Assembly: GCA_030323885.1 (NCBI GenBank)
Contig: CM059187.1
Coordinates: 87,711,726 to 87,775,725, forward strand
Length of the DNA: 64,000 nt
Source of the DNA: Branchipolynoe longqiensis
Lineage: Eukaryota; Annelida; Polychaeta; Phyllodocida; Polynoidae
Reading direction: 5' to 3'
Under the pieces are notes generated by a model, which searched no databases, was not told where the DNA came from, and saw only the letters and a list, made by a program, of their open reading frames with translations. This document shows, piece after piece, positions 12,665 to 47,516 of the stretch (positions are counted from its first letter, which is position 1; each line of letters begins with the position of its first letter). The translations under genes and the position numbers were made by a program.

Positions 12665-14337
12665 TGATTGATTGATTGGTGGTTGCTTTATGCCGTGTAG
12701 GCAGCATAGGCCATATTCACGGCGAGAAATATTTGTTTTTTGTTCAAACCATCGCTTTTACATGTAAAAGCAGACAATCAATGATGTGCCAATAGACACT
12801 CATTAAATTAGAAAGCTCACAATCATATATTTGTGGTGAAGGGAAACAAATTCCCATAGAAAAAGAAAAGTTATATTGATAATTGATAGAATCTATTTAG
12901 TAAACTATATGAGGTGGTACAGTCCAGCTGCCCTCAAAAAGGCTAAAATGTTTTCCTGTTTTACCTTAGTAAAAAGGTCATGCATACTGTCTGCCGTGTA
13001 GAACTGTTGGCGCAGGGCCAACAAATCAATGCAACTTAGTAAAATGTGTTTGAGTGTCAGTGGGGACTGACACCCAATACATTCAGGGGGAGGTTCCCCC
13101 TTGAGCAGAAAAGCATGTGTAAGCCATGAGTGGCCAATACGGCAGCGGCTAAGGACCACTTGGTCCCACCGACCTCCCGCATGAGTCTGTGGTGGCTTTC
13201 CCACAGATGGTTCAATTTCTTTAAGGTTATTAATGTTTTCATCCCACTCATGTTGCCATTTGGATTTTATGTGGGTGGCTATTAGTGGTTTCAGATCAGA
13301 TTGAGGGATCAGACACAGTTCAAGATCACAGTTCAGGGCCTTCTTCGCAGCCTGATCAGCTCGTTCGTTTCCTTGTATGCCGGCATGCCCAGGCACCCAG
13401 CACAGGTGGATGTCATACCCATCGTTGTCAGTTGGTTCATTTTATAAATGACCGTTGCTAGAATAGGGTGATTCGTTTTCAGTCCAGCAACAGCCAGGAG
13501 GCAAGAGAACGAATCTCTGTATATAACATAGTTAGTGTGGTTGGATACCTCGATACACTCCAATGCGAGAAGGAGTGTTCGGGCTTCTGCAGTGAAAATC
13601 GAGCACATTAGTGGTTTCAGATCAGAGTGAGGGATCAGACACAGTTCAAGATCACAGTTCAGGGGCTTCTTCACAGCCTGATCAGCTCATTCGTTTCCTT
13701 GTATGCCGGCATGGCCAGGCACCCAGCACAGGTGGATGTCATACTCATCCATTGTCAGTTGGTTCATTTTATAAATGACCGTTGCTAGAATAGGTTGATT
13801 CGTTTTCAGTCCAGCAACAGCCAGGAGGCAAGAGAACGAATCACTGTATATAACATAGTTAGTGTGGTTGGATACCTCGATACACTCCAACACAAGAAGG
13901 AGTGCTCGGGCTTCTGCAGTGAAAATCGAGCTCTGATCGGGCAAATGTACACCAAATTTTTCCCGTTGGCAGACTACCGCAGCAGCTACCCGGCTTTGGT
14001 CTTTCGAACCATCAGTGTATATGGAGAGGTGGTCTGCAAACTGGCCTTGAATCTCTGCATGCAGTCCTTGGTACTCTAGTGGATGTGTCCCAGACTTCCT
14101 CAGTTCTGTGAGTTGGAGGATAACCGATGGCTTTCTCAACGACCACGGGGGATGTTCTGGGACTTTGGCATCCTCCAACACATCCAAATCCACGCCCAAG
14201 GCCTCCAAATGAGATTTCATTCGGAGCCTCAGTGGCCGGATGTAATTCGGCCTGGCTTCATACCTGGATTCGTCATGTTGCTCGAATAGACAATTGTGTG
14301 CAGGATTCAATGCATTAGTTTTTATCTTGACTACATG
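12662..14337 (-). pseudogene. 5'-truncated I/Nimb-like LINE, RNase H end
   Basis: The 3' part of the ORF2 polyprotein of a non-LTR retrotransposon, read on the minus strand. The upstream frame (13,687-14,337) has a post-RT segment and an RNase H domain with YTDGSKD, FTAEARALLL and IYSDSFSCL, which carry the acidic catalytic positions. The downstream frame (12,905-13,396) has GHAGIQGNERAD and a terminal zinc-knuckle-like C-x2-C-x7-H-x4-C. RNase H in this place is known for I-clade elements. The 3' UTR ends with 'gcctacacggcataaagcaa' followed by CAAT-type tail repeats, a pattern familiar from I/Nimb elements. Endonuclease and reverse transcriptase are missing. The reading frame is broken by an internal tandem duplication. 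13-bp target-site duplications flank it. Confidence 0.85.
13281..13931. repeat. 326-bp tandem duplication inside the LINE
   Basis: Two adjacent copies (13,281-13,606 and 13,607-about 13,931) both start ATTAGTGGTTTCAGATCAGA. The length is not a multiple of three, so the RNase H frame is interrupted and partly repeated. Since only this LINE is affected, the duplication happened after insertion or in the source copy. Confidence 0.85.
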
Positions 14338-14350
14338 AGTGCAGACACAT
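14338..14350. other. LINE target-site duplication, right copy
   Basis: AGTGCAGACACAT, the exact partner of 12,652-12,664. Confidence 0.8.
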
Positions 14351-14627
14351 GGATGCACATCTATTTATTTCCCATGGGCGTAAAGTAATTATTTGTGATG
14401 GTTTGTTTCAAATTAACATGAATTATGATTACATATGCAGATATTGTGAAACATTCATCACTGTTTATTATTTCATGGATTTGTTTTTGCCATGCCTCTG
14501 AAATAAAGTGGGATTGTCTTATTTTATATGCATTCAGTCTGAATATGATTGTAGATTTGTGTGCGCTTTCAATCTTGAAATGGGGGGTGTGCTTTTATTG
14601 GGTAGCATGCTTCTATCGGGACATATA

Positions 14628-19079: not shown

Positions 19080-19107
19080 AATCCGCTTAATCCGCTTAAT
19101 CCGCTTA
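19080..19107 (+). repeat. 9-bp leader repeat
   Basis: ATCCGCTTA occurs three times in a row just before the Gag start, and GTCCGCTTT follows 7 bp later. It may be a structural leader or packaging element; no function is shown. Confidence 0.6.
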
Positions 19108-19123
19108 CCTCGGGTCCGCTTTC

Positions 19124-20188
19124 ATGCCTGGGGGCCTCTATTGTTCGGAGTGTGGTTCGAACCACGACAATCAAGACCAATGTACTTGTGCTAAAACGAT
19201 CGACACACCTATAACCAGGTCAGGTATGGCTACGCGTAGTAGCACAGTGAAGAATGCGAGATCGGTAGGTAGTGTCGACGAACTTGATTCGACCGTTTCC
19301 AACTTCGCCGATTTGTCGCTGGAGGAGCGCGAGTCGAGTGCTCGAGCGGCCATCGACAAACTGAAGGCAGAGATGCGGGTCACAGCCCTGGAGGACGAAC
19401 TGGACGATCTCCGAGCGGAAAGAGACAGACGACGCAACAGAAGGCGGACGACCATGATGGAAGAACAACACGACGTTCCGGCAAAGACAACCCGTGACGA
19501 CGCGGAAGACCGACTCCAGCTAAAGGATGAACGACGGACGACGGACGCAGCACCTTTACCGCCGAGTTGGACGAGAGGGACCGACCACGTCGACTCGACC
19601 CACGGTCGATCGCGTCGACACTCAAGGGGGTCGAGTAGGAGAAGGAGGCGGGATTCCAGGTCGAGCAGTGACGGCAGTTCGTCACGAAGGCGGCGCAGTA
19701 AGTGGTCGTTGAGAAAGTATGGGATGGGAAAGGATGTCAGGAAAATGAACCCCCATGAACTTGTGAAGGCTTCATGTGACTGGTGCCTAGACATTACTTC
19801 CCTTACAAAATCTGACTACAGATCATTTATTCAACACATCGGTTTCATATCAACGCGGGCGCGTGAAGATCATTACAAGGACGTTGCCCATGTCAACCAC
19901 GTGCTTGCCATTCGCAAGCTCGGTGAAAGCATCGGGTTCGCGGCTTTCTCCAAAGCCCACCAAGATGAAAGTATTGAACATTACGGCCCACACAATATGA
20001 AGATCAAGAGACAAGCGACTAACACATACAGTGCTCGGAGAAGATCACCGGGCACCACCCCGAAGAAGGCTTGTTACGCCTGGAATGGCGATTCAGGCTG
20101 CCTAAGATCGGACGACGAGTGCCGCTTCGCCCACGCTTGCTCAAGATGTGGCGCTAAATCGCACAAAAGGTCAAGATGTAAAGATTGA
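19124..20188 (+). CDS. YR retrotransposon Gag-like protein
   Basis: The 354-residue first protein, starting at ATG 19,124 in CTTTCATGC. It is expected to bind element RNA and form the particle. An N-terminal metal-binding-like cluster (C7, C10, H14, C20, C22) is followed by a charged, probably coiled-coil segment (about 64-115) and an Arg/Ser-rich tract (about 162-192). The C-terminus has a CCCH finger, C317-x8-C326-x6-C333-x3-H337, directly joined to a zinc knuckle, C339-x2-C342-x4-H347-x4-C352. The CCCH-plus-CCHC pair at the C-terminus is typical, in my recollection, of invertebrate YR-element Gags. The stop is UGA followed by C. The same frame stays open beyond it into RT-RNase H. No frameshift is visible. 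Confidence 0.88.
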   Translation: MPGGLYCSECGSNHDNQDQCTCAKTIDTPITRSGMATRSSTVKNARSVGSVDELDSTVSNFADLSLEERESSARAAIDKLKAEMRVTALEDELDDLRAERDRRRNRRRTTMMEEQHDVPAKTTRDDAEDRLQLKDERRTTDAAPLPPSWTRGTDHVDSTHGRSRRHSRGSSRRRRRDSRSSSDGSSSRRRRSKWSLRKYGMGKDVRKMNPHELVKASCDWCLDITSLTKSDYRSFIQHIGFISTRAREDHYKDVAHVNHVLAIRKLGESIGFAAFSKAHQDESIEHYGPHNMKIKRQATNTYSARRRSPGTTPKKACYAWNGDSGCLRSDDECRFAHACSRCGAKSHKRSRCKD

Positions 20189-22474
20189 CGTGCTCGGACC
20201 TTCAACAAGTATAGCCCCCCGACTACTACGGTCCTTCCAGCATCAATTCGGACCCGTCCCCGCTCCGCTCCGGTCAGGACAGTGGATTGGGAAAGAGACC
20301 CACAAATTGAATTGGGGAGGGATTGCCGGATCGGTGATAATAATCGCAATTCTGAAGTCGTTACTGGCTATAGTCATAATGTTGAATTTCTTTGCAGCAG
20401 TGATCATTCTAAAGATAGCAGTGATTCTAGGACTGTCAACCCTAACCGGACTGAACATCGCAACTTCTCTGATAATGATTGCATGCCATGTCTTGCTCTT
20501 TCAGCGGGGGTCGAGATCTGTGACGGTGCGGGGGGGGTTGAGGTCAGTCTTACTCATGATCGGAGTAAGGTCTTGCGCTGGGAGCAGCCTGAGGGCGCCA
20601 GCAAGGAGGATCGCCTATTTGTAGAGCAGACCGCATCGGGTGGCCTGCTAGTCTACGTTAGCGAAACCAAAGGGGCGCCTCCACAGAGTTTTCAGGTATC
20701 CCGCACCTGTGTGGACGGGATCTGCACTTGTAGCCACTTGATAGCGGGCAAACCGAGCCAATTCAAACCGTGCAGGTGGTTCGCTGAAATATGTCTTCGT
20801 GGCGATTGGGACCCAGATTGGGTTTATCTGTTGATAGGCGTCACTTTTGGTTTTAGGGTGATTAACCCAGGGGTTGAGGTCTCCTATATTCCAGACAAGC
20901 CCAGGAGGAAGGCTAAGTGGGAGCGTGACATAATTAATAAGAAATTCCTCGAGGAGGAACGGGAGGGCCTCATTTCTAGGGTAGATGCCCCCCCTCTCTG
21001 CACGCACGAGGCCTTCGTCGTTCCTAAAGACGATGGCGGAGGTCGGGTTGTTATCGACTGCAGTATGCCTTCGAACGAATCCGTGAACAACTTCACTGAT
21101 GAAGTCCGGACCAAATTCTCATATAAGGGCCTCGATGATGTAACCGAGATGCTCGAGAGGGGTGACTATATGGGGACGATAGACATAAAGGACGCCTATC
21201 GCGCAGTCCCCATCCACCCTGATGACCGCCAGCGTCAAGGCCTTCGCCATGGTGATGAGAACCTCGATTACTTTGTTGATAATCGGTTGAGCATGGGCCT
21301 GTCATCGAGCCCCTTTATCTTTTCCAAGGTTTCGGACTTCATCGTGAGATGCGGTGTTCGCGAAGGCTTGGCCAGAGTCGTAAACTACCTGGATGACTTC
21401 TGTCTAGTCGGGGGGACGCGTTCGGAGGTCCAGGGCGCTCAGAGAACCCTCATCCACATCTTGAGAAGACTGGGGTTTTTTGTTAACTTCAAGAAGGTCA
21501 GTGGTGTCGAGACCAAGGTTAGGTTCCTTGGCATATTCATAGATTCTGTACGCCTCGAGCTTAGCCTTCCTCCGGATAAATTAGAGAGAACATTAGAGAT
21601 CCTCCGCAAACTACGTGGGCGCAGGAAGGCCAGCAGAAAGGAGCTGGAGCAGGTGGGCGGGTTGCTCGCTCACTGTGCCAAGGTCGTCCGGGGCGGGCGG
21701 ACCTTCTCTAGGCGGATCTATGATCTCATGTCTAAACTCAAGCAACCTTTCCATAGAACGAGGCTAGGCACTGGAGTTAGGGAAGACCTCGACTGGTGGT
21801 TGAATTTTGCAAGTAACTTTAACGGGAAAGCCAAGATTCTCGGTAAATTTGCCCCAGTTGTATCCTGTTACAGCGACTCTTCCAAGTGGGGCTTCGGTGC
21901 CCTGCATGGCAGCGATTGGACTGTCGGTGCATACACAGACGCGACGGAAGACATCCTTGACGAGTACGTTGGTCATCACCACTTCCGTCCTCCGGAGGAT
22001 GTCTGGACCGCCCACATCAACGTGCAGGAGATGTGGGCGGTCTACGCATCCTGCGTCCGTTGGAGTTCGGGCTGGGGCGATACTGCGGTCATTTTCGTCA
22101 CCGATAGCTCTGTTGTGCAGGCAGCCCTTAATACTGGCAGGTCTAGGAGTGCCGAAATCATGCACTTCTTGCGCAGAATATTTTGGTTCTCGGTTCAATA
22201 CAATTTTACCTTTACTTCTGTTTATATACGTAGTGCTGTTAATGTAGTATGTGATGCCTTAAGTAGACTGTGTGACAAGGATAGTGCCGCTAGAATCAGG
22301 AGTGTCGATGGTGCCAGAATGCTCTGTTGCAGCGACACTTTTGACCAATCACTCGTCTCTTTCAGTGAGGGCAGCCCTGAGAGCCGAGCAGCAGCAGTAC
22401 CAGCATCAAGCATACGCTCAAAACTCAACAATAGCGAGGGCCACGCAAATCAAGAAATATTTAAGATATGCTGA
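20189..22474 (+). CDS. YR retrotransposon reverse transcriptase-RNase H
   Basis: Makes cDNA from the element RNA and removes the template strand. It lies in the same frame as Gag, open from the codon after the UGA; the first in-frame ATG is only at 20,483. Counting residues from 20,282: RT motifs include FVVPKDDGGGRVVIDC (245-260), DIKDAYRAVPIHP (catalytic D301), LSMGLSSSPFIFSK, and YLDD at 369-372. RNase H follows with YSDSSKWGFG (D532), NVQEMWAVYA (E583), FVTDSSVV (D608) and VVCDALSRL (D658), a complete acidic tetrad. No methyltransferase or aspartic protease is seen. Likely expression is UGA readthrough from Gag; initiation at 20,483 is the alternative and would still keep the RT core. Confidence 0.93.
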   Translation, partial: RARTFNKYSPPTTTVLPASIRTRPRSAPVRTVDWERDPQIELGRDCRIGDNNRNSEVVTGYSHNVEFLCSSDHSKDSSDSRTVNPNRTEHRNFSDNDCMPCLALSAGVEICDGAGGVEVSLTHDRSKVLRWEQPEGASKEDRLFVEQTASGGLLVYVSETKGAPPQSFQVSRTCVDGICTCSHLIAGKPSQFKPCRWFAEICLRGDWDPDWVYLLIGVTFGFRVINPGVEVSYIPDKPRRKAKWERDIINKKFLEEEREGLISRVDAPPLCTHEAFVVPKDDGGGRVVIDCSMPSNESVNNFTDEVRTKFSYKGLDDVTEMLERGDYMGTIDIKDAYRAVPIHPDDRQRQGLRHGDENLDYFVDNRLSMGLSSSPFIFSKVSDFIVRCGVREGLARVVNYLDDFCLVGGTRSEVQGAQRTLIHILRRLGFFVNFKKVSGVETKVRFLGIFIDSVRLELSLPPDKLERTLEILRKLRGRRKASRKELEQVGGLLAHCAKVVRGGRTFSRRIYDLMSKLKQPFHRTRLGTGVREDLDWWLNFASNFNGKAKILGKFAPVVSCYSDSSKWGFGALHGSDWTVGAYTDATEDILDEYVGHHHFRPPEDVWTAHINVQEMWAVYASCVRWSSGWGDTAVIFVTDSSVVQAALNTGRSRSAEIMHFLRRIFWFSVQYNFTFTSVYIRSAVNVVCDALSRLCDKDSAARIRSVDGARMLCCSDTFDQSLVSFSEGSPESRAAAVPASSIRSKLNNSEGHANQEIFKIC

Positions 22475-23351
22475 GCTTTTCCATTCTTCTAGGTCCCCCA
22501 TACCATGCTCCGAGGAGCAGGTGGCCCTATATGCCGCCTGGTTGGCAAGGGACCTCAAGTATGTATCGGTCATCAACTACCTCAGCGGCCTAAATTACTT
22601 CCTTAAGCAAAACGGCGAAAGGCCTATAGACTATACAAACTTTGTCCTATCTTCCACGCTCAAAGGTATTCGTAGAGCTAAGTCTGATATCCCGAGGCGC
22701 GCTATGCCCCTCCTTCCCCATATGCTTCGCAAGATCTTCGCCTTGTTAACTAATAACCCCGGCCACGTCGCCTGGCGCGCAGCAGTCCTCTGCTCATTCC
22801 GAGGGCTGTTGCGTAAGTCCCAGGTCACCTTGTCGGATTCCTCCTTATTGAGATCAGACTTCCAGTTTTATGACTGGGGGCTGGTTTTGACTGTCCGCCG
22901 CTCCAAGACGATCCAGTTTAGCGAAAGGGTCCTCGAGATCCCTATATCTAGGTGTCTTGATACTGACATGTGTGCGGTTTATTGGACCGAGCGGCATTTC
23001 AGCCAGATTGCCGCCAAACCATCTCAGGCAGCCTTCCGCATTCCATGCGGCGGCGGGAGTTCCGCCCCCTTCCCCTACTCGGCCTATCAGGAGACCCTAA
23101 AGATTTTCTCAGCCAGGGCGGGGCTCGATGCCGCCTCCCTCTCGTCCCACTCACTTAGGAGGGGGGGTTGCACCTTCCTTTCCATGTGCGGAGCCACCAT
23201 AGAGGAGCTGAAGGTCCGGGGCGACTGGGCGTCCGAAACTGTCTATTCATACCTCAAGACACCGCTCGGCACAAGGATTGTGAACGACATGAGGGTCGGG
23301 GTGGCGCTATGTTCGAGTCAGGCTGGCGTTGGGTTGGGGGGAGACGCTTAG
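22308..23351 (+). CDS. YR retrotransposon tyrosine recombinase
   Basis: The integrase of the element; it should insert a circular DNA by site-specific strand exchange. The open frame starts at 22,263 and the first ATG is 22,308 (347 residues). It overlaps the end of RT-RNase H by about 167 bases in another frame. Numbering from 22,272: the box I arginine is probably R181 (FRGLLRKSQV), the beta-hairpin lysine K212 (RRSKTIQF), box II H293 and R296 (SHSLRRGG), W319 at the position often held by His/Trp (RGDWASETVY), and nucleophile Y327 (VYSYLK). All catalytic positions are present. An SAM-like N-terminal core-binding region with 'ISYLSGL'-type residues (INYLSGLNYF, 101-110) precedes them. Expression may use reinitiation, a frameshift or a separate RNA. 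Confidence 0.92.
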   Translation: MVPECSVAATLLTNHSSLSVRAALRAEQQQYQHQAYAQNSTIARATQIKKYLRYAELFHSSRSPIPCSEEQVALYAAWLARDLKYVSVINYLSGLNYFLKQNGERPIDYTNFVLSSTLKGIRRAKSDIPRRAMPLLPHMLRKIFALLTNNPGHVAWRAAVLCSFRGLLRKSQVTLSDSSLLRSDFQFYDWGLVLTVRRSKTIQFSERVLEIPISRCLDTDMCAVYWTERHFSQIAAKPSQAAFRIPCGGGSSAPFPYSAYQETLKIFSARAGLDAASLSSHSLRRGGCTFLSMCGATIEELKVRGDWASETVYSYLKTPLGTRIVNDMRVGVALCSSQAGVGLGGDA

Positions 23352-41714: not shown

Positions 41715-41930
41715 TTAGGAAATTGTTCTCCAGTCCCACTGCATGGTATTGTCATGGGGGTGATGAAAATGGGAAATATTGCGCCTAGAGTGGGACTCGA
41801 ACCCAGATCTCTTTGCATTCCGGGCCAGTGTGCTAACCATTACACCACCTAGGCTCCCTGATATCAACACACTACCCACGCCTACCTGTCTATGCGGCTC
41901 CTTGCCTGAGAGGTCAGTGCAGACCACTAC
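41715..41930 (-). repeat. SINE-C copy
   Basis: A good tRNA-like head on the minus strand: GAGCCTAGGTGGTGTAATGG, B box GGGTTCGAGTCCC, acceptor-like TCTAGGC able to pair with GCCTAGG. Preceded (in its own sense) by 'gcagaccactacactcgtcc'-side leader words and followed by CAATATTTCCCATTTTCATC. Confidence 0.78.
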
Positions 41931-41999
41931 ACTCGTCCCCCTGGAATTGTAAGTCTTTTAATTGCTTACAATTACATACATACAGGCAATGCAACGCAC

Positions 42000-42250
42000 T
42001 TACATACACAGGGTAGGTTCAACAACTATACAGCGCATAGCTTGTACAGGATCATGGTCACGGCAACCAGTGTCGTGGGGGTGATGAAAATGGGAAATAT
42101 TGCGCCTAGAGCGGGACTCGAACCCACATCTCTTTGCATTCCGGGCCAGTGTGCTAACCATTACACCACCTAGGCTCCCTGATATCAACACACTACCCAC
42201 GCATACCTGTCTATGCGTCTCCTTGCCTGAGAGGTCAGTGCAGACCACTA
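42000..42250 (-). repeat. SINE-C copy
   Basis: Nearly the same head as the previous copy (GGGTTCGAGTCCCGCTCTAG). The two minus-strand copies sit about 300 bp apart in the same orientation. Confidence 0.78.
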
Positions 42251-43305: not shown

Positions 43306-43352
43306 GCCAGAATAGCAGACTGACCCGTTTACCTTTTTTGGAATTCGCCCAC

Positions 43353-43705
43353 ATTTGGTTTGAGGCTAGATTTTCTTATGTTTTTACCCTATTTGTAATA
43401 TGACCATATTTGGTTTGAGGCTAGATTTTCTTATGTTTTTACCCTGTTTGTAATATGACCACCGTTGGTCGAGGCTAGATTTTCTTATGTTGTTACCCTG
43501 GTTGTAATGTGACCATATTTGGTTTGAGGCTAGATTTTCTTATGTTGTTACCCTGTTTGTAATGTGACCATATTTGGGTTGAGGCTAGACTTTCTTATGT
43601 TCTTACCCTGTTTGTAATATGACCACAGTTGGTTGAGGCTAGATTTTCTTATGTTGTTACCCTGTTTGTAATGTGACCATATTTGGGTTGAGGCTAGATT
43701 TTCCT
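43353..43705 (+). repeat. ~55-bp tandem repeat
   Basis: About six and a half copies of a unit with GAGGCTAGATTTTCTTATGT and CCCTGTTTGTAATATGACCA. It abuts the left end of the FEN1-like element. Confidence 0.9.
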
Positions 43706-43858
43706 ATTTAGTTCAGGAGCATTAGCTACCAGAACAGTAAAACCCGGAAAAAAATAATGTCAAGCTAATTTTTTTTATATAAGCTTAGTGTAGTATATTA
43801 AACAAAATATCAAAAGTCCCCTAAAATCCAACCCTTGCTTCATCGCTAAAAAGATTAT

Positions 43859-43871
43859 GTTGCCTAGCAAC
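43859..43871. promoter_or_regulatory. X-box (RFX-like) site in left TIR
   Basis: GTTGCCTAGCAAC fits the RFX X-box form GTNRCC-N-RGYAAC. The mate in the right TIR (GTTGCTAGGTAAC, 47,235-47,247) also fits on its complement. It may serve the element's own DNA-binding protein instead. Confidence 0.35.
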
Positions 43872-44018
43872 CATCGATGCATGCTAATGGCCCAGATAAT
43901 GACCTTATAAATGGACTTATTGCATTATGAACTTAACATATGCTTGTAATTAACATTCTAATTAATAAGCAAGTAAGATAATACATAGAACAACACCATA
44001 CATGATTATTATACATCG

Positions 44019-44033
44019 GTAACCAATGGCAAC
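44019..44033. promoter_or_regulatory. Second X-box-like site in left TIR
   Basis: The complement reads GTTGCCATTGGTTAC, an X-box with a longer spacer. It is conserved as the same 15 bases at 47,073-47,087 in the right TIR. Confidence 0.3.
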
Positions 44034-44169
44034 AGCATACATATCAATGATTGTTCAATGAAATGCTTGAATTTTGTTCATTGCATATCGATATATATAT
44101 ATATCAGGAAAGTTATTAGTTATGTAATCCTGATGTATGAGCGATCAACTGATCAACCAACACTTGAAT

Positions 44170-46685
44170 TTACTCGTCCTCGCCAGTACCGAGTTCCTCA
44201 GCCTGTGGGGCGTTGCTGCATCCGATTCCCATACATTGTGAACACATTGCAGAACAAGCCATTCCTGCCTGTCTGCACCCACAATGACTCATGCATCCTG
44301 CCTTACAGTTGCAGCTTATGAGCTTTATTAGTTTCTGAGGTGCCGATTTTCCATCCCCACTCAGTCGGTGAGGGATCCTTTCCCAACCATTGTTGCACCT
44401 GTAAGTAGGTCCGCAAAGAATGTTGTCGTGCAGCTGCGCTGGTGGGTGGCAGAGTGGCTAGAGTGAACTTGGCACCCACTGACTTGCCAGCAATGTTCCT
44501 CTTATAGGCATAGTATCTGTAGTCATTCAGTGTATTGAACCTTGTTCCACCATATAATGCAAGAAGAAACTTTTCTCCAGCTGCTGAGACATCAGTGGGA
44601 TTCAAAGTTTCCATATTGAACGATCTCATTTCCTTAGCAAGCTCTTCATTTGACATGAGCAACCGAAACACCTTTTTCTTGCCTTGTCCATACAACGCAG
44701 ATGTGGTATCACACCCTGTGATGGCGTGAAGAAAAAGCAAGTTGTGTTGTTTTTCTCCAACAGCTTGCTGTATCGCGGTGATATTGAATAATTTTGCCGG
44801 TTTATTGTTCATACTGGGACGAAGCATGAATAGCTTTGTATTGGTTGGTGTCCGAGCAACGAGCATGACCAACCGGTCTGTGTCAGTCCCAACCAACACA
44901 ACTGTCTCCCCATTGAATGCAAGATCAAGAGCTGTAGACATGATCATTGTGTCAGCATCAGCTGTGGCCTGTGCAACATGTATACAGACATCACAGAGAC
45001 CAGAAGATACAGCAAGAATAAGGCAGGATTTATTGTTTCCATTTCCAAGAAACCCTGCCTGTGTTGTCATAGTGTGCATGCTGCCAGTGAAGATGATATC
45101 TGCGGAGAATGCCTTGCTTGCCCTTCGATTTTGTTCAACAGATTTTGTTGAAGGAGGGCCATCATATCCATCAAAGACAACTGTTGCATTTGACTGGTAG
45201 TGCTTGAGGTACATTTGACAGATTTCATCATAAGTTGCTGGACGTGGCCAAGTCACTGAGTGAAGAAGATGTCCACCATCAACAACAAAAAGAGCCTCGC
45301 CTGGCATATTATTGTCACTGGGTACCAATGATTCTAGCAGAGTAGCTAATGCAGCCTTTGTCAATTTTCTCATTGACACATCATCAAACAATGATGGGGG
45401 TCGTGGCGCCAGTTCATACTTCAAGAAGCTGGACAACTCGGAGCTCGAGTTAATAATGCAGGCGATTTGACTGAACAGTTGCAGTGGATTAACGGTGACT
45501 TCATCGTTGCAAATTTTTACAGTGTTTGTCATTGCTGCAAGCGGTTTTACTTTGTCATTCCGTCGAAGTTTTATTCCTGCAAACAGTTTACCAACCATTT
45601 CCTGCATAGCTTTGAATCCATGACGTTCAGCTTCATCGCAGTTAATGGTTTTGTGTGCTACAATTCCAGTAGCAAGGGAAACCAAGGTATTATCTGGTTT
45701 GTTCACAAAGGGAGGGTGTGCTTCTAGCCATTCCAGGGAGGAGTTCAAGTCATGATTGTCTCTGGTTTGTCTTGAGGTAAGAACCTCCTTATGCTCTTTG
45801 TGCTGCTCAGATGTACCTGGGTTGATGCCAGTGAATGTTTCCAGGGCATTACATAGTGGTACACACAGCGGTAGAGCAAGCACCCACTGTGCAAGTGTGC
45901 TCTCGCTGATTCCACGGCCACGGGTTAATCCTCCCGAGGTCTTGATAGCTCCATCAGTACCTGTTCGATGGTCATGTCAGACCAAACTCCACACCAGAAC
46001 TTGTCACTTCGGCGGATTGTGAAGAAACCCCTGTTTGTGAACATGTTGTATTCTTCCGAAGTCATCCTCTTTGACAATTCTGTCATTTGCTGTACATATA
46101 GATGTGCCGATTTTGCGTATGGAAGATGTCCTGCGGCATGCGGGTGTGGAAGCATTTTCATGACAGTATAGCGGTGAAGCTCCCAGTCACTGTCCTCTCT
46201 ACTCTGACAAATAATCGCATGATGTTAACTTGCTCAAAGTATTGGATCCAGAGTTTAGCTGTTCGAGATATAGCTTTGGCGTGGTCAGACAGCTGTTTGA
46301 GAAGTTGCTTCAGTTGACTAATAACAATAGTCCCCAATCCATCTTCCAACAGATGTTTCCTCTTTCAGAAGATCCTGATAAAGCTTTGTCAATGTGCCTT
46401 TGTCATCTTCACTAAGGCAGTCTGGTGTTTGCAGAAGGATAGTGGCCAGAGTTTCTTGAGTAATATAGTGAGCACGCAGAGCACGGGAATATGCATGTCC
46501 AGTTGTCATGTCTGCAACAGAGGCTTTGGCATATATTGTGCTCCACAGTTCTTCTAATCCACTGCCTGACATTATGTTGCCAACAGCTCCCATATAAGAC
46601 ATCAATAGGTGGAAGCCACCTAATCTAACAACAACATTGTCCAGTTCATCTGAGGCAGCCACGATCTCAGATGGATCGATATGCA
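44170..46685 (-). pseudogene. FEN1/XPG-like nuclease with Cys-rich tail, broken
   Basis: Belongs to a large family of uncharacterised invertebrate proteins. The longest intact frame is 44,303-45,950. Counting from codon 45,883, the motif order is that of FEN1: VDGGHLLH (D202), VFDGYDGPP (D238), QNRR (253-254), DADT (D309, D311), GTDTD (D334, D336), and GCDTTSALYGQGKKKVF (D392), the last like the helix-two-turn-helix of FEN1. Next come LPPTSAAARQH and EWGWK, typical of the family. The cysteine tail (C-x-C-x3-C-x3-C-x-C, CXC/tesmin-like) is in another frame at about 44,170-44,315. Further frame changes lie near 45,946, 46,196 and 46,340. Upstream pieces contain VVRLGGFHLLMS and GSGLEELWSTIYAK. 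The usual N-terminus is gone, replaced at 46,685-46,790 by GGAT-type repeats. At least four breaks make it a pseudogene. Confidence 0.85.
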
Positions 46686-46790
46686 TGGGAGGATGGATGG
46701 ATGGACGAGTGGATGGATGGACAGACGGATGAACGAAAGGATGGCAGGACGAACGGACGGATTGATGGATGAAGGAAGGAATTAATTCAT
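46685..46790. repeat. GGATGGAT-type microsatellite
   Basis: Degenerate GGAT/GGAC tetramers where the N-terminal coding region would be expected. Confidence 0.75.
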
Positions 46791-47059
46791 TAGCATATAT
46801 TACACACCTAATAATAAAACCATAATATGGCGCTAAACAATGGACATGCATTTCAATTACGCTGGTTGCTATGCATATGTTTGGACATAGGTTGTCATTG
46901 ATCAGCATAATTCACAGATATGAAACGGTTTCAAACAAGATATTGACCATTTGTACTGTTTATATTTTGTACTAATAATAACATGATCTACTACACTTTC
47001 ATCGCGACATAGTTTGGATGTGGTTGCTAATATTCATGCTAGCGCTACCATACTTTGGC

Positions 47060-47388
47060 TGCAATGTACGCTGTTGCCATTGGTTACCATGTATAATAAA
47101 TATGTATGGTGTTGTTGTATGTATTGTTGTACTTGCTTATTAATCAGAATGATAAATACAAGTAAATGTTAGATTAATAGTGGAATTAGTTAATCCATAA
47201 GGGCATTTTCTGGGCCATTTAGCATTCAGCTATGGTTGCTAGGTAACACAATTTTTTTAGGAATGAAGCAAGGGTGGGATTTTAGGGGACTTTTGATATG
47301 TTACTCAGCAAGATGAACTGAGCTTGTAAAAAAAAATTCAGCTTGACATTATTTTTTTCCGGGTTAAAACCTAATGTTCCTGGACTAA
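47060..47388. repeat. Right terminal inverted repeat
   Basis: Partner of 43,708-44,040, ending CCGGGTTAAAACCTAATGTT and CCTGGACTAA. Confidence 0.85.
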
Positions 47389-47516
47389 TTAGTGCTATAA
47401 TAACTTATATATAACAACTATGTCCAGGGATGGATATCTTGTGTAAGTAGTATGTGGAGAAAGGCATATTAGCCAGGCAACGATGTGTAGAACCAATGGA
47501 GGTATTCTTGTTGATA

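Follow-up and report, generated by a model that had tools for sequence, protein, structure and literature searches.

The element and its gene

A stretch of 64,000 nucleotides from the polychaete Branchipolynoe longqiensis (contig CM059187.1; hereafter the window) contains a transposable element of 3679 bp at positions 43709 to 47387, as delimited by its inverted repeats and flanks, with its gene on the minus strand. The element is bounded by a left terminal inverted repeat (TIR) at 43709 to 44042 (plus strand, on the 3′ side of the gene) and a right TIR at 47064 to 47387 (minus strand, on the 5′ side). Aligned over 303 positions, these two repeats, each about 330 bp long, share 83% identity (E value 1.5e-85 within the window); TAGTTCAGGAGCATTAG and TAGTCCAGGAACATTAG form their outer ends. 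The trinucleotide ATT, read from the sequence and scored as a 3-bp target-site duplication, flanks the element on both sides (43706 to 43708 and 47388 to 47390). An earlier reading of this DNA from its letters alone (the original prediction) had placed 330-bp TIRs here, with coordinates that proved correct to within 1 to 2 bp. A tandem array of a 55-bp unit (6.6 copies, 43349 to 43707) stops exactly where the element begins on the left.

The original prediction also described a nuclease gene, alone inside the element, with the acidic motifs of FEN1/XPG nucleases in order and a CXC-type cysteine tail. The motifs are indeed present. A 557-amino-acid stop-to-stop frame (44303 to 45976, minus strand), which includes the C-terminal part of a transposase gene with a FEN1/Exo1-type nuclease (44345 to 45949), holds DGG, FDGY, DADT, GTDTD, GCDTTS and GQGKK in that order, and across a 20-row alignment the acidic positions of the nuclease motifs vary little or not at all. 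The cysteine tail is found as well (44170 to 44330, minus strand, aligned to full-length relatives), but in a 95-amino-acid frame (44170 to 44457) that differs from that of the nuclease. A frameshifted remnant of the transposase part (45952 to 46689, minus strand) retains GGFH and the region of the TIEQ glutamate and has lost the first two DDE motifs. A deletion scar of about 180 bp, largely a GGAT-type repeat, lies at 46673 to 46852; it was recognized by comparison with two related loci, L031 and L033, in which the longer stretches of about 593 bp and about 570 bp hold the first two DDE motifs. What had been taken for a nuclease-only gene is the 3′ part of a larger, frame-broken transposase gene.

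The reading frame of the window gene changes between 46318 and 46364, 46158 and 46224, 45925 and 45976, and 44303 and 44457. Introns were considered as the source of these changes and were rejected on the aligned pieces at three breaks, because at two of them neighboring pieces meet or overlap to within a few bases, and the third leaves a gap about as long as the missing residues would require.

Copies in the host genome

The 1.85-Gb host assembly was searched with the left repeat as query; the original prediction had proposed both TIRs. This search gave 294 first-look candidate places. Forty of them were scored, including the window, and all proved 98 to 100% identical. Twenty of the 40 were taken with their flanks for closer comparison; the flanks have a GC content of 44%. 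A right repeat 95.9 to 99.7% identical to that of the window was found in 17 of these 20 copies, with gene sequence between the repeats; the gene is partial or interrupted in some of them, and the right repeat of one (L017) is cut at its outer end. The copies L011, L015 and L020 have no right repeat. All 17 complete copies contain the nuclease part, and most are 3.4 to 3.9 kb long. One copy (L024, G000:C12:7124273-7133603) has about 1.36 kb of extra sequence inside the gene, apparently a nested insertion.

In 17 sequences, namely the window and 16 of the 20 fetched copies, the element was readable to both outer ends. Exact target duplications of 3 bp flank 14 of the 17, while one has 4 bp (L022) and two have just 2 bp (L013 and L026). 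When left and right flanks were paired across different copies, a 3-bp match was seen in 9 of 272 pairings. The duplicated sequences vary, including GTA, CTG, TAT, CTA, CAG and others. For an empty-site test, the 17 joined flanks were compared with the fetched loci and the window, and a spanning match was obtained for five, that of L009 being solely to tandem repeats of its own locus. In the remaining cases the match lay elsewhere: L024 to L025 (91% over 297 gap-free positions) and L021 to L019 (90% over 213 columns), each with a clean junction, and L012 to window positions 41812 to 42131 (84% over 321 columns, with weaker matches to L025, L015 and others) and L022 to L036 (84% over 191 columns), each with small gaps near the junction. 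Near-identical copies, target duplications and empty sites establish that the element is a mobile, TIR-bounded DNA transposon carrying the gene, in agreement with the original prediction.

The amplified copies are broken. The 17 sequences are 94.0 to 99.5% identical to their majority sequence, which contains three frame changes relative to intact relatives; the third is absent from the window, L010, L017, L021 and L024. The ratio of nonsynonymous to synonymous substitution rates (dN/dS) against the window is 0.52 to 1.32 for six amplified copies, near neutral. It is 0.66 for L031 and 0.80 for L033 (with overlapping pieces counted twice), and the comparison with the divergent family of L029 gives 0.11, a rough value since dS is saturated. 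The window copy is a broken, non-autonomous derivative, and the set is most simply explained by a recent burst in which the protein of other copies moved non-autonomous ones.

Longer relatives and classification

From the 2952 first-look candidates of a protein search in the host genome, 32 were scored, and eight loci were fetched. L031 (G000:C12:8702000-8708600) belongs to the family of the window, with 93 to 97% DNA identity over the matching pieces, and has a single open frame of 963 amino acids with DDE-type motifs, nuclease and cysteine tail; about 87 internal residues are missing, one nuclease motif is altered, and the outer 3′ repeat is gone. L033, in which the gene is present from the first DDE motif on, and L035, in which it is present from the second on, are of the same family, both broken and with the 5′ repeat only. 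L029 and L030 represent divergent families and are broken and nearly full-length. They lie between long repeats of their own with outer ends homologous to those of the window. L029 is about 5.4 kb long with the duplication TAG; L030 has no clear target duplication at its ends, and no complete repeat pair was found at L032, L034 or L036. Relatives with DNA were also sought in genome-contig and viral-contig collections, and none was confirmed there.

An RNase H-like, DDE-type part lies directly upstream of the nuclease in L031, L033, L035 and the full-length relatives, which overturns the earlier statement that no DDE domain accompanies the gene. Complete relatives encode a single protein of about 1450 amino acids with N-terminal cysteine motifs, a DDE-type part with a large helical insertion, the nuclease and the CXC tail. 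The nearest solved fold to the transposase part is the P-element transposase (6pe2, 6p5a), at 10% identity. When 31 full-length relatives were searched against Pfam (E ≤ 0.01), there was no match to P transposase or THAP, despite this resemblance in fold, and none to a helicase; the sole recurrent match was a weak one to DUF6589 (PF20231; 6 of 31, best E value 3.9e-6), pointing to a possible role of this family of unknown function as a transposase core.

The nuclease part is FEN1/Exo1-like in fold. Human Exonuclease 1 was found by sequence with a 67-row family profile (E value 2e-4), while the window frame alone gave nothing meaningful in Pfam and PDB sequence searches, and NCBIfam gave weak matches to DNA polymerase I and flap endonuclease Xni, far under the cut-offs. 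The nuclease part shares with FEN1, Exonuclease 1 and XPG their fold and metal-binding acidic residues; unlike them, it follows a transposase part in one fused protein and precedes a CXC tail.

The Academ superfamily is said to have been first described by Kapitonov and Jurka in 2010, and its AcademX lineage reportedly goes back to Kojima in 2020. The AcademX nuclease is of the FEN1/XPG type. Kolobok elements have TTAA target sites, and P elements have 8-bp target duplications. The element very probably derives, through deletion and frameshifts, from an AcademX-type cut-and-paste DNA transposon and is non-autonomous. Its family combines a DDD/E (RNase H-like) transposase with a nuclease, TIRs and 3 to 4 bp duplications, as AcademX does, and the original prediction had already named Academ as the nearest precedent; the window copy differs in being shortened and frameshifted. 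As PMC10045372 gives it, AcademX makes duplications of 3 or 4 bp and AcademH of 9 or 10 bp, tied to an encoded nuclease and helicase, respectively. AcademH would belong to the same superfamily if the Academ filing is correct, but the element has 3-bp duplications. The length of L029 is near the mean of 5565 bp for curated bivalve Academ elements in PMC10294476. Membership in Academ, resting on the nuclease, the DDE-type part, the duplication length and the size, is well supported but indirect, because the comparison was made with published descriptions of the superfamily. In contrast, the P element lacks a FEN1-like nuclease and has longer duplications than the 3 bp seen here. Some Kolobok lineages are likewise DDD/E transposons that also encode a nuclease, but of the lambda-exonuclease-like, DnaQ or His-Me finger types (as listed in PMC9587614), and the duplications of the element vary, unlike the fixed Kolobok target. 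In the literature collection searched, no paper was listed as linking Academ with XPG or a flap endonuclease.

Other explanations were weighed. A host FEN1-like gene caught by chance between two repeats would agree with the broken state of the window gene and with the 17% difference between its repeats; such an origin is extremely improbable given that 17 of the 20 fetched places, spread over different chromosomes, hold the TIR-gene-TIR unit, that the unit has target duplications and empty sites, and that L029 and L030 show the same arrangement with homologous outer ends. The presence of the nuclease part in all 17 complete copies, together with the 557-amino-acid frame kept in the window, would favor a transposon moving by its FEN1-like nuclease without a DDE transposase. 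Against this, three gene-breaking frame changes are common to most amplified copies, and the dN/dS of six copies against the window (0.52 to 1.32) is near neutral. A transposon relying on the nuclease alone is rejected, with very little probability left to it, because the longer copies and relatives carry a conserved DDE-type part. The original prediction of a transposon that uses a structure-specific nuclease was correct as to the FEN1/Exo1-like nuclease and wrong as to the lack of a DDE domain, which relatives carry.

It is also unlikely, if less so, that the element represents a superfamily of DDE-nuclease transposons of its own, which would have converged on Academ or be only distantly related to it. 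The link to Academ is made here by description rather than direct sequence, the nearest solved fold is that of the P element, and the recurrent Pfam match is the unnamed DUF6589. The nuclease and the 3 to 4 bp duplications nevertheless fit AcademX as outlined in PMC10045372, and the size of L029 (about 5.4 kb) agrees with the bivalve mean in PMC10294476.

Elsewhere in the window, three consecutive long open frames (19100 to 23351, plus strand), all unbroken, resemble a DIRS-type retroelement. One is gag-like and has a cysteine-histidine motif, one encodes a reverse transcriptase (Pfam RVT_1, E value 2.7e-12), and one, of 362 amino acids, looks tyrosine recombinase-like by eye and has no Pfam match. 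A retroelement fragment at 12905 to 14364 (minus strand) has an RNase H domain (Pfam E value 1.8e-11) and contains a 327-bp tandem duplication (13281 to 13931).

Possible mechanism and the protein family

In the AcademX-type transposon favored here, intact copies would supply the transposase protein in trans. Its DDE center may nick and expose the 3′ ends at the TAG termini and join them to the target, whose strands would be cut with a 3-bp stagger. DNA binding is the probable role of the CXC tail and of the N-terminal cysteine motifs. We tentatively propose that the fused FEN1-like center might cut the non-transferred 5′ strand or trim a flap left by the DDE center. Removal of the 5′ strand or flap is performed in other systems by a separate nuclease, such as TnsA of the TnsB-TnsA pair in Tn7, or by host FEN1. 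Predicted structures suggest two active sites within one protein. More doubtful is the full scheme, in which a single full-length polypeptide would divide the excision strands between a P-element-like DDE center acting on the 3′ strand and an Exo1/FEN1 center acting on the 5′ strand or flap. If this two-center scheme were true, the protein would correspond, in eukaryotes and as one covalent fusion, to the TnsB-TnsA pair, and the scheme could account for duplications of 3 to 4 bp in the nuclease lineage versus 9 to 10 bp in the helicase lineage.

Two protein-database searches gave 112 and 328 matches to the family, several hundred of them unlabelled or mislabelled. Sea spider, thrips, stick insects, octocoral, annelid and whelk are among the named sources. 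Database labels such as "Tesmin/TSO1-like CXC domain-containing" and "histone-lysine N-methyltransferase EZ1" probably derive from the cysteine tail. Two relatives (P0131 and P0173) are filed under a Sedimenticola metagenome assembly, probably through contamination from an animal host. Elements of this kind appear to be known already, and the complete relatives of this one explain a family of unlabelled proteins that is common in marine animals and insects, with several hundred unlabelled or mislabelled proteins accounted for as parts of DDE-nuclease-CXC transposases.
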